DNA of 64,000 nucleotides from Tistrella mobilis. GTDB lineage: Bacteria > Pseudomonadota > Alphaproteobacteria > Tistrellales > Tistrellaceae. A program made the position numbers and the translations under genes. Under the pieces are notes generated by a model. That model saw only the letters and a list, made by a program, of their open reading frames with translations, was not told where the DNA came from and did no database searches. How positions within the stretch are numbered: position 1 is the stretch's first letter; each line of letters opens with the position of its first letter. The stretch spans positions 4,313,501 through 4,377,500 of the forward strand of contig NZ_CP121017.1 of the NCBI RefSeq assembly GCF_041468085.1, read 5' to 3'. Shown one piece after another: positions 1-1,810 of the stretch.

Positions 1-47
1 GAACCAAGCCCCCCTCCGCAGATCAAACATGCTGCAAAGCAACTATG

Positions 48-182
48 TCAGGAAAGATATTCCGGCACTTCATCACTAGGCGCCCCACCACCTTGCGTCT
101 CCTTAGACGCATGTTCTATAAGCAACAGTGGCTTACTCCACTCCTTGGCCACCTTCTGCGATTCGTTCGTCTGATCTGCCAT
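48..182 (-). CDS. candidate lasso-peptide (benenodin-like) precursor, 44 aa
   Basis: This small ORF reads as a RiPP precursor rather than an enzyme. The chosen ATG at 182 has GGAGG five bases upstream; in-frame starts at 194 and 233 lack such a site. The first 30 residues would be a leader with a W-x-x-P-x-L-like stretch (EWSKPLL) and an ASKETQ end. Threonine then sits at the -2 position, as is general for lasso leaders, and A-S-x-E-T is what I remember of benenodin-type leaders. The predicted core is GGGAPSDEVPEYLS, with Gly1 and Asp7 or Glu8 able to form the macrolactam ring; the six- or seven-residue tail is short for the class. A TTGACA box lies at 248-253, though no good -10 follows. No B, C or isopeptidase gene is visible; they would have to lie left of the window. 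It could also be an ordinary small protein. Confidence 0.5.
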   Translation of the reverse strand: MADQTNESQKVAKEWSKPLLLIEHASKETQGGGAPSDEVPEYLS

Positions 183-511
183 TGCCCCCTCCATATGGTT
201 AAAGCAGATAAAATCCTTTAAAATTTGTTGCACGCATGAAGAGATTTTGTCAATACCTATTCGATTCGAAGCGGCCCTCGCTTATATATTCTATCGTGAA
301 ATTATACGATGTGTCACTCATGAGAGATATCATCTGATGATCATCACTTCCTTCAGCACAAAATAAAGACAACCGTCTCCGCCTTAATGCTCTCACACAC
401 ATGAGCCAGCCTTGAAACTTCCGTGAGCAATACCCCCCGATTGAGATAGCCTCGATACCTAATTATATGGCATTTTCTGTTTTTCCGCACCACGTCAGGA
501 GATCATCTATA
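183..511. other. AT-rich divergent intergenic region
   Basis: This 329-base stretch is clearly richer in A and T than the rest of the window and separates the minus-strand precursor candidate from the plus-strand DUF6916-like gene. It holds a probable promoter for the latter and a TTGACA box facing the precursor. A perfect short palindrome, ATCATC-T-GATGAT, lies at 329-341. No gene or RNA was recognised in it. Confidence 0.5.
441..468 (+). promoter_or_regulatory. predicted sigma-70 promoter for the DUF6916-like gene
   Basis: TTGAGA (441-446) and TTATAT (463-468) are 16 bases apart. The predicted transcript starts near 475, leaving a leader of about 37 bases before the ATG at 512, with AGGAG at 497-501 inside it. 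Confidence 0.4.
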
Positions 512-832
512 ATGCCTGTTCTCCGGAATCTCTCCGAACTCACAGCCACCGATTTTGAAGCAGCAATCGGCACGGCTTTCGTTGTACCAGGTGAAACATC
601 CGACACCCCGATCGAGATCCTCACCCTGCGGCGGGTTGAACGGCGCAAGCCATCGCCGCCGGCCTTCGCAGAGCATTACAGCCTCATGCTCCGCGGCAGC
701 CGGACCGACGTCTCCATCGATCCGCAGATGGTGCTGCTTGAGCACGAGACGCTGGGCGTCCTGCATCTGTTCATGAGCCCCTTCGGTCTGACCCCCGAAG
801 GCCTGGTGCGCTATCAGATCGTCTTCGCCTGA
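512..832 (+). CDS. DUF6916-like small protein
   Basis: A 106-residue soluble protein with no signal peptide or membrane segment. Its pattern is an F-x-x-x-x-GT-x-F opening, a central H-Y-S-L-M-L-R-G strand, H-E-T-L-G, then L-F-M-S-P and a closing Y-Q-I-V-F. This matches my memory of the DUF6916 family, which often sits near phage-tail-like MdpB proteins and peptide-modification genes. The ATG at 512 is preferred over 467 because AGGAG at 497-501 precedes it and the extra 15 residues look unlike the family. The function is unknown. It converges with the GNAT gene, with six bases between the stops. Confidence 0.6.
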   Translation: MPVLRNLSELTATDFEAAIGTAFVVPGETSDTPIEILTLRRVERRKPSPPAFAEHYSLMLRGSRTDVSIDPQMVLLEHETLGVLHLFMSPFGLTPEGLVRYQIVFA

Positions 833-838
833 CGGCGA

Positions 839-1402
839 TCAGCCGCCTTCAAACGGCAGATCGTCGTCCGGATGACCGGCGCCCCAGGTCATGAACATGT
901 AGGGCCCCTGGGGCTTGCGGTCGACGAAGCCGAGCCGCTGATACAGCCGCCGGGCCGGGTTGTAGCTTTCCACATGCAGCCCGACATAGCGGCCGGTGCG
1001 CGCGGCTTCGTCGAGCAGAACCCGGATGATGGCCGAGCCGATGCCTTGCCCGGTGAGCATCGGCACCAGGATGATATCCACCAGCCGGATTTCGTGCACG
1101 CCGCCCCGGTCGATATACAGCCGCCCCACCGGCGCGCCGTTCTGCGTGATGATCAGAAAGGCGGTGGTGGTGTAATGGGTGGTGTAGTGATTGTCCTGCA
1201 GCCGGAACTGATCGGCCAGGAAGCTGCGTCGCACGGCATCGGGCCAGCCCGCGGCTTCAAGTTCCGCCCAACGGAACGAGATATACAGCTCGCGCAGGAA
1301 GTCGGTGTCCTGGGGCGTGCGCGGCCGGACGGCGAAGCCTTGGGTTGCAAGCGCCGGCGGCATCTCGAAACTGAGATCGGGGGCGGGCGTGGTTTCGGAC
1401 AT
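839..1402 (-). CDS. GNAT-family N-acetyltransferase
   Basis: A 187-residue cytoplasmic protein with the acetyl-CoA-binding motif A of GNAT enzymes, Q-G-I-G-S-A, following a beta strand (LVDIILVPML). The usual late motif (NPARRLYQRLGF) is also present. The substrate cannot be read from the sequence. The start at 1402 (MSETTPAPD) gives a length normal for the family; upstream in-frame codons look non-coding. The preceding Shine-Dalgarno is weak. It lies between the DUF6916-like gene and the PqqD-like gene, so it may modify a peptide or protein of the locus, but that is inferred only from position. Confidence 0.75.
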   Translation of the reverse strand: MSETTPAPDLSFEMPPALATQGFAVRPRTPQDTDFLRELYISFRWAELEAAGWPDAVRRSFLADQFRLQDNHYTTHYTTTAFLIITQNGAPVGRLYIDRGGVHEIRLVDIILVPMLTGQGIGSAIIRVLLDEAARTGRYVGLHVESYNPARRLYQRLGFVDRKPQGPYMFMTWGAGHPDDDLPFEGG

Positions 1403-1528: not shown

Positions 1529-1810
1529 TCAGGCGGCGACGCGCACCAGGTCGTGCTCGGCCATCCGTTCCAGAAGCTCCATCAGATCGGCGCGGATCTC
1601 TTCGGCATCGCCCTCGTAATCGGCGACCAGCGCGGCATGCAGATCGGCCACCGAAACCGGAGCGGCCATCCGCTCCCAGATATCGGAGCCGATCTGGTCC
1701 AGGCCGTAATAATTGCCCTTGTCGACATGCATCAGCACCACCTCGCCATCGATCTCGGCGATCATCAGATCGTCATTGCGGGTGACGGTGGTCTCGGGCG
1801 TGATCGGCAT
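1529..1810 (-). CDS. PqqD-family peptide-binding (RRE) protein
   Basis: A 93-residue stand-alone PqqD-like protein. The fold signature is visible: an N-terminal strand (VTRNDDLMIAEIDGEVVLM), the Y-Y-x-L-x-x-x-G-x-x-I-W turn near residues 34-45, then a helical half with repeated acidic positions. PqqD proteins and the related RiPP recognition elements bind the leader of a precursor peptide and hand it to a modifying enzyme; lasso systems use this as B1. The ATG at 1810 follows AGAGG. No pqqA, pqqC or pqqE gene is nearby, so a role in pyrroloquinoline quinone synthesis is unlikely. Together with the candidate precursor at 48-182 it suggests a peptide-modification locus extending left. Confidence 0.75.
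   Translation of the reverse strand: MPITPETTVTRNDDLMIAEIDGEVVLMHVDKGNYYGLDQIGSDIWERMAAPVSVADLHAALVADYEGDAEEIRADLMELLERMAEHDLVRVAA

Follow-up and report, generated by a model that had tools for sequence, protein, structure and literature searches.

At the left edge of the window, i.e. the whole stretch of 64,000 nucleotides that was analyzed (positions 4313501-4377500 of contig C4 in the 6.3-Mb, four-contig Tistrella mobilis genome, hereafter G000), the minus strand carries an open reading frame (48-182) encoding a peptide of 44 residues, MADQTNESQKVAKEWSKPLLLIEHASKETQGGGAPSDEVPEYLS, a translation that agrees with the sequence-only reading of this DNA. This is a real open reading frame: it begins with ATG, is preceded just 5' of the start by a ribosome-binding site judged strong (GGAGGGGG; 185-192, minus strand) and is followed directly 3' of its stop codon by a terminator-like hairpin of 13 pairs with a T-rich tail (L002 19517-19489), the right half of which lies at 1-17 (minus strand) and which extends leftward out of the window (17 to -11). 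A sigma-70 promoter search for the gene returned one weak site, a number equal to chance. The intergenic stretch in which the peptide is located (window 1-480) has a G+C content of 45% versus 67% across the window.

The segments WSKPLL, ASKETQ and GGGAPSDEVPEYLS, to which the sequence-only reading drew attention, are all present in the product. Using the roles given for Thr-2 and YxxPxL in the available part of PMC10368454 to set the register, residues 1-30 (93-182, minus strand) are predicted to form a leader in which WSKPLL (123-140) occupies positions -16 to -11, with W replacing the Y of the YxxPxL-type motif, and Thr-2 is residue 29. The predicted core, GGGAPSDEVPEYLS (51-92, minus strand), would begin at the junction TQ|GGGAPSDE and comprise a ring from Gly1 to Glu8 and a tail, VPEYLS, with terminal Ser; we infer this cleavage site and ring closure from the register of related precursors. 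Asp7 and Glu8 had both been offered as ring-forming residues; Glu8 suits the family better and Asp7 less so. The peptide carries a YxxPxL-type leader motif (W for Y), Thr-2 together with a core residue 1 and an acidic residue at 7-9, as lasso precursors do, and the C-terminal Ser of paeninodin-type phosphorylated lasso peptides. WSKPLL, Thr-2, Gly1, Glu8 and the terminal Ser together make it very probable that the peptide is a lasso-type RiPP precursor. Curated lasso models all scored the window peptide below cut-off, the highest being benenodin at 12.9 bits (cut-off 33) and Subterisin at 13.6 bits (cut-off 27). VPEY resembles part of microcin J25; given that in the present register it lies past the predicted ring, this likeness was given zero weight.

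The divergent neighbor of the peptide gene encodes a DUF6916 protein (512-832, plus strand; PF21880, E 5.4e-18), followed by a GNAT acetyltransferase of the collar module, which recurs beside collar genes (839-1402, minus strand; PF00583, E 4.3e-10), and by a stand-alone PqqD-like protein (1529-1810, minus strand; PF05402, E 6.7e-18, above cut-off), a candidate RiPP recognition element (B1). The lasso PqqD model NF033536 matched the latter with E 1e-19 and 70.4 bits (cut-off 80). The PqqD-like gene lies, as the sequence-only reading had noticed, about 1.35 kb from the peptide, so that a PqqD-type B1 is found alongside the precursor as in lasso pathways. Left of the terminator and on the peptide's strand are genes for three Phage Tail Collar proteins (L002 18631-19200, 18027-18584 and 17462 to about 18013; PF07484, E 7.5e-23 to 1.1e-26), and beyond them lie cytochrome b561, cytochrome c' and ordinary genes. 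The same reading suggested that the peptide may mark the edge of a RiPP locus, with maturation genes to be looked for left of position 1. The lasso-type precursor with a nearby PqqD protein, likely its B1, is supported, the maturation locus is not: in the left flank and among the window genes examined the peptide has no cyclase, B2 protease or kinase close by, and on its contig one has to go 0.94 Mb to reach an Asn-synthase homologue, far outside the roughly 10 kb within which the reading itself had expected a maturase. HPr-type kinases are likewise absent from the peptide neighborhood and sit at other loci, e.g. L018 and L021. Structure models of the DUF6916 protein (best pLDDT 86.8, the other four 70-77) gave no PDB or viral match at E 0.001, and the open-licence literature yielded no paper on DUF6916; a described role for collar-GNAT-DUF6916 modules was not found.

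A search with the 44-mer in 59 genomes returned the peptide itself and three weak matches (E 0.0076-0.28) within frames of 315-536 aa; given that no close homologues emerged by sequence, we sought the family by position. The order PqqD, GNAT, DUF6916, peptide, three collars recurs in two further Tistrella genomes (G001 and G002), and the order GNAT, DUF6916, peptide, three collars in a genome of another family (G096), where no PqqD gene lies beside the peptide in the 12-kb stretch examined. In all three a W-x-x-P-x-L peptide occupies the corresponding site in the same orientation, and this raises above chance a frame of 44 aa that by itself would be within it. The same-site peptides, 20-34% identical among the four genomes, share one layout, in which eight residues separate W-x-x-P-x-L from Thr, a single residue intervenes between Thr and Gly1, and Asp stands at ring position 8 or 9; their predicted cores read TL|GADTYLSD GVDGVVS (G001), TL|GNFYVTNTD GDYSNS (G002) and TL|GSDSYTSD GLDGS (G096). 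Thr-2, Gly1 and Asp8 or Asp9 are thus kept, and the lasso-type assignment withstood this comparison of homologues.

The sequences flanking the peptide differ in their conservation. Between G000 and G001/G002, identity is 97% for cytochrome b561, 98-99% for LepA, 99-100% for PqqD and 87-91% for GNAT, versus 51% for DUF6916, 67-69, 64-66 and 56-57% for the three collars and 20-25% for the peptide; no blastn similarity spans DUF6916 to the first collar gene. Measured against the conserved flanks, DUF6916 and the collars have diverged jointly in G000 and the peptide faster still. Between G001 and G002, DUF6916 and the collars are 90-95% identical and the peptides merely 25%. At the level of sequence, the joint divergence of DUF6916, collars and peptide suggests a functional tie. 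Tistrella PqqD differs by at most one of 93 residues among the three genomes, an identity that is no proof of selection given that the G000 and G001 genes differ by just 3 of 282 nucleotides.

To characterize the precursors, we compared 39 sequences picked by eye, some of them paralogues or orthologues, 21 from collar loci (the window's own included) and 18 from other lasso-type loci of G000, G001, G002 and G096; the L016-precursor orthologues L244 (G001) and L248 (G002) were left out as near-copies. Thr-2 with Asp/Glu at ring position 8 occurs in 20/39 (2000 tail shuffles: mean 7.2, maximum 16), and at position 8 or 9 in 28/39 (2000 shuffles: mean 11.9, maximum 21), leaving 11 precursors without this combination. 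When A, S, V or P is allowed for Thr, 38/39 fit a ring of 8 or 9, a fit that involves free choices and has no control of its own. In 27 of these 38 fitted precursors Gly follows the ring, and across all 38 the predicted tails have 4-11 residues; the six residues of the window peptide, which the sequence-only reading had considered unusually few, are typical of this collar-associated family. Fitted cores are rich in Gly/Ser/Thr with few bulky plug residues. The leader motif has W, not Y, in 34 of the 39, the C-terminal residue is Ser in 37, and a ring-opening residue other than Gly is predicted for several relatives. According to the available parts of the sources, Thr-2, Gly1-Asp8 and YxxPxL have been described for lasso precursors together with Ile/Val-2 variants (PMC10368454), and Asn1 rings have been reported (PMC12670498). 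Of ten related precursors compared with NCBIfam, a single one, G002_L245, passed a lasso leader model (24.6 bits, cut-off 19).

Besides AsnB-like proteins, G000 encodes six lasso-type cyclase homologues (NF033535, E 1.4e-26 to 4.5e-84, all below cut-off), five of which have a precursor beside them (L016 10826-10978; L019 9162-9317; L020 11674-11823; L021 6321-6488; and, for L018, L015 590-739); the L018 precursor is not fitted by the ring pattern. The junctions TQ|GGGDQSSD (L019) and TQ|GVSGPNYD (L020) are closely like that of the window peptide, and further cyclase-paired junctions of the same genome read TE|GSGSQVSE and TT|GTGTSGIE. A sulfotransferase is encoded at three of these five precursor loci and a 2OG-Fe(II) oxygenase at two. 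The sixth cyclase, L017, has no precursor, PqqD, kinase or sulfotransferase gene in the scanned stretch, nor have its counterparts L258 and L260; each of the three Tistrella genomes carries one stand-alone cyclase of this type (93-95% identical). This status is cleanest in G001 and G002, given that in G000 another lasso-type cluster, that of L018, lies no more than about 10 kb from L017, beginning about 6 kb off. A quick tree placed L017, L258 and L260 among lasso-type cyclases, nearest to L259 and to L076 from the collar cluster of Oleisolibacter; the motif [ST]-x-G-x-D-[SA] is kept in all 37 tree members and reads SSGLDS in the stand-alone cyclase. L254 of G096 was ruled out as an orthologue of the latter, as it groups with AsnB. 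The L021 cluster, considered as the missing half of the window locus, was demoted: it has its own precursor and is not in G002, where the best match to its cyclase reaches only 33% identity. The only PF13471 (B2-type) protein of G000 is encoded on contig C1 (L257 9838-10494) beside genes that by eye are parA/parB-like; each of the three Tistrella genomes has one such protein (93-96% identical), always on a contig of its own apart from the peptide, in syntenic surroundings and beside the same parA/parB-like neighbors.

To place the locus in a wider family, we collected a DUF6916 class set (15 loci, from 15 of 385 genomes with a match; neither the two weakest of these genomes nor certain second matches were included), a collar set (79 loci from the best 80 among the matches listed) and a DUF6916 phylum set (40 loci from 39 of 44 matching genomes, 398 having been scanned; of the other five, three were already taken or the window's own and two were left out). 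Locus lengths of 3-20 kb make all gene counts lower bounds. Profiles built from these clusters detected a lasso-cyclase homologue in 15/134 loci, of which 11 also have PqqD, 12 an HPr-type kinase, 13 a sulfotransferase and 7 a B2 protease. Carriers of the full type include Acidovorax (L072), Xanthomonas arboricola (L075), Oleisolibacter albus (L076), Paracidovorax cattleyae (L095), Sediminibacterium ginsengisoli (L117) and Pseudomonas defluvii (L142). All 15 cyclase loci encode a W/Y-x-x-P peptide ending in Ser; the motif pattern was drawn from the first loci, which is a bias, and the phylum set, taken later, gave 4/4. The main motif scan demanded the final Ser, three other scans did not, and another allowed seven residues. 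The remaining 119 loci contain a convincing precursor in L057 and L058 (both Tistrella) and in L063, which has kinase, sulfotransferase and PqqD genes; the 115 loci that have neither cyclase nor kinase and lie outside Tistrella gave 6 chance-like motif matches only. Chance-like matches (L065, L079, L094, L145, L208 and L209) were dropped from the precursor list, as were further matches in the wrong place or inside genes. The motif alone is weak, given that reversed sequence gave 13 matches versus 29 real ones in 2.25 Mb before gene masking. Collar triplets and GNAT recur across many phyla (L072-L150), with at least three collar genes in 70/79 and GNAT in 55/79 of the best matches listed; most of these loci are devoid of lasso-type genes and their role was not found. 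A second DUF6916 locus of G000 (L070, G000:C4:3517000-3530000) has three collar genes, and no lasso-type peptide was found in it.

From the frame, its motifs, its conserved place, its neighbors and the cyclase linkage in other genomes we infer a collar-associated lasso-type precursor that is bound by PqqD, matured in trans and works with the collars and DUF6916, a joint reading that we consider fairly probable. The stand-alone PqqD protein would bind the leader through WSKPLL, and the stand-alone B2 protease, encoded on another replicon, would cut after Thr-2/Gln-1 and before Gly1; B1 is described as binding leaders and passing them on to B2 (PMC5067487, available part). A lasso-type cyclase encoded about 0.95 Mb off, most likely of the L017 type, would join the Gly1 amine to the Glu8 side chain, leaving a tail of six residues whose terminal Ser may be a target of an HPr-type kinase from another locus; lasso HPr-type kinases use the C-terminal Ser as substrate (PMC8498205, available part). 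The functional partners of the product would be DUF6916 and the three tail-collar proteins. For maturation in trans by the stand-alone cyclase and B2 pair we see an even chance. A further proposal, that collar fibers bind the trans-made macrolactam, or are joined to it, and present or deliver it, that DUF6916 is its assembly or protection partner and that the peptide tip is the fast-changing specificity piece of a collar-GNAT module, is a long shot.

Whether the ring is threaded is a separate matter, and the predicted tails of 4-11 residues make threading doubtful; we put a threaded product somewhat below even. The same enzyme set might equally yield an unthreaded macrolactam of ring and short tail, as the tails and the Gly/Ser/Thr-rich cores poor in bulky plugs would suggest, although lasso cyclases and B1/B2 proteins are known for threaded products and some short lasso peptides exist; this too we consider somewhat short of even. 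As to the acting enzyme, in G096 about 4.4 kb separate the collar peptide from an L021-type cyclase, which has its own precursor, and this points away from the L017 type as the cognate cyclase. That a cyclase of another cluster, e.g. of the L021 type, matures the peptide would also be consistent with the six lasso-type cyclases of G000, but is on balance unlikely: G002 has the collar peptide with no L021-type cyclase, and L017-type genes are present in all three Tistrella genomes.

The absence of a maturase beside the peptide, together with cores that differ wholly among three species, would also be expected if the peptide were an orphan whose processing ended with the loss of its cyclase. The intact frame, ribosome-binding site and terminator in G000, the open frames of G001 and G002, which show the expected junction, and the retention of PqqD, cyclase and B2 make this improbable. 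Slightly less probable still is that the lasso layout is superficial and PqqD serves a different modifying enzyme: PqqD domains do serve many RiPP classes (PMC13381572 and PMC5067487, available parts), but the lasso-cyclase linkage in 15 loci and the Thr-2/ring statistics argue against another class, and no radical-SAM or ATP-grasp gene was found beside the peptide among the genes domain-searched there. A chance reading frame, for which the yield of the reversed control could be invoked, is hardly credible given the same-site homologues in three genomes, the ribosome-binding site, the terminator and the matching junction.

Compared with known systems, so far as the available parts of the sources describe them, the putative pathway resembles paeninodin and its proteobacterial split-B1/B2 relatives (PMC8498205, PMC5067487) in having a PqqD-type B1, a C-terminal Ser in the precursor and, as candidates, a transglutaminase-type B2, an HPr-type kinase and an Asn-synthase-type cyclase; a sulfotransferase gene is seen in some clusters of Firmicutes (same sources). 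It differs from that group in the W for Y of most precursors, the short tails, the tail-collar/GNAT/DUF6916 neighbors and the separation of window precursor and B1 from the other enzymes. With Bradymonas BsfA and the Ile/Val(-2) relatives (PMC10368454) the family shares B1, B2, kinase, a Gly1-Asp8 ring and a position -2 that is not restricted to Thr; the leader motif of BsfA is at -17 to -12 versus -16 to -11 here, BsfA is phosphorylated on Ser3, and the window peptide, unlike this group, has Thr-2. Metanodin (PMC12670498) opens its ring with Asn, as non-Gly openers are predicted for several relatives here, whereas the window peptide starts with Gly, and the available part of that source does not report metanodin with collar genes. 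PF07484 collar triplets of many phyla likewise combine three collar genes with GNAT and often DUF6916, but most of the loci sampled (119/134 without cyclase) lack lasso-type genes. A search of the open-licence literature, a scope that gives no proof of novelty, found no paper joining 'tail collar' and 'lasso peptide'.

On the sequence evidence, the new element is a candidate subfamily of lasso-type precursors that is linked to tail-collar modules and whose pathway is split. If this is true, a group of such peptides has escaped notice because curated models miss nearly all precursors tried and because the Tistrella precursor is far from its enzymes. The collar link, if true, would provide a partner testable both ways, pointing to a possible role for the peptides and opening a first way into the collar-GNAT-DUF6916 modules, and a genome that combines one B2 with several precursors would offer a natural example of lasso-type maturation in trans. 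Two other loci of G000, L030 (G000:C2:361895) and L032 (G000:C4:1581821), have a PqqD gene next to an HprK-like gene with no cyclase in the 3-kb stretch, and are perhaps more split RiPP loci.
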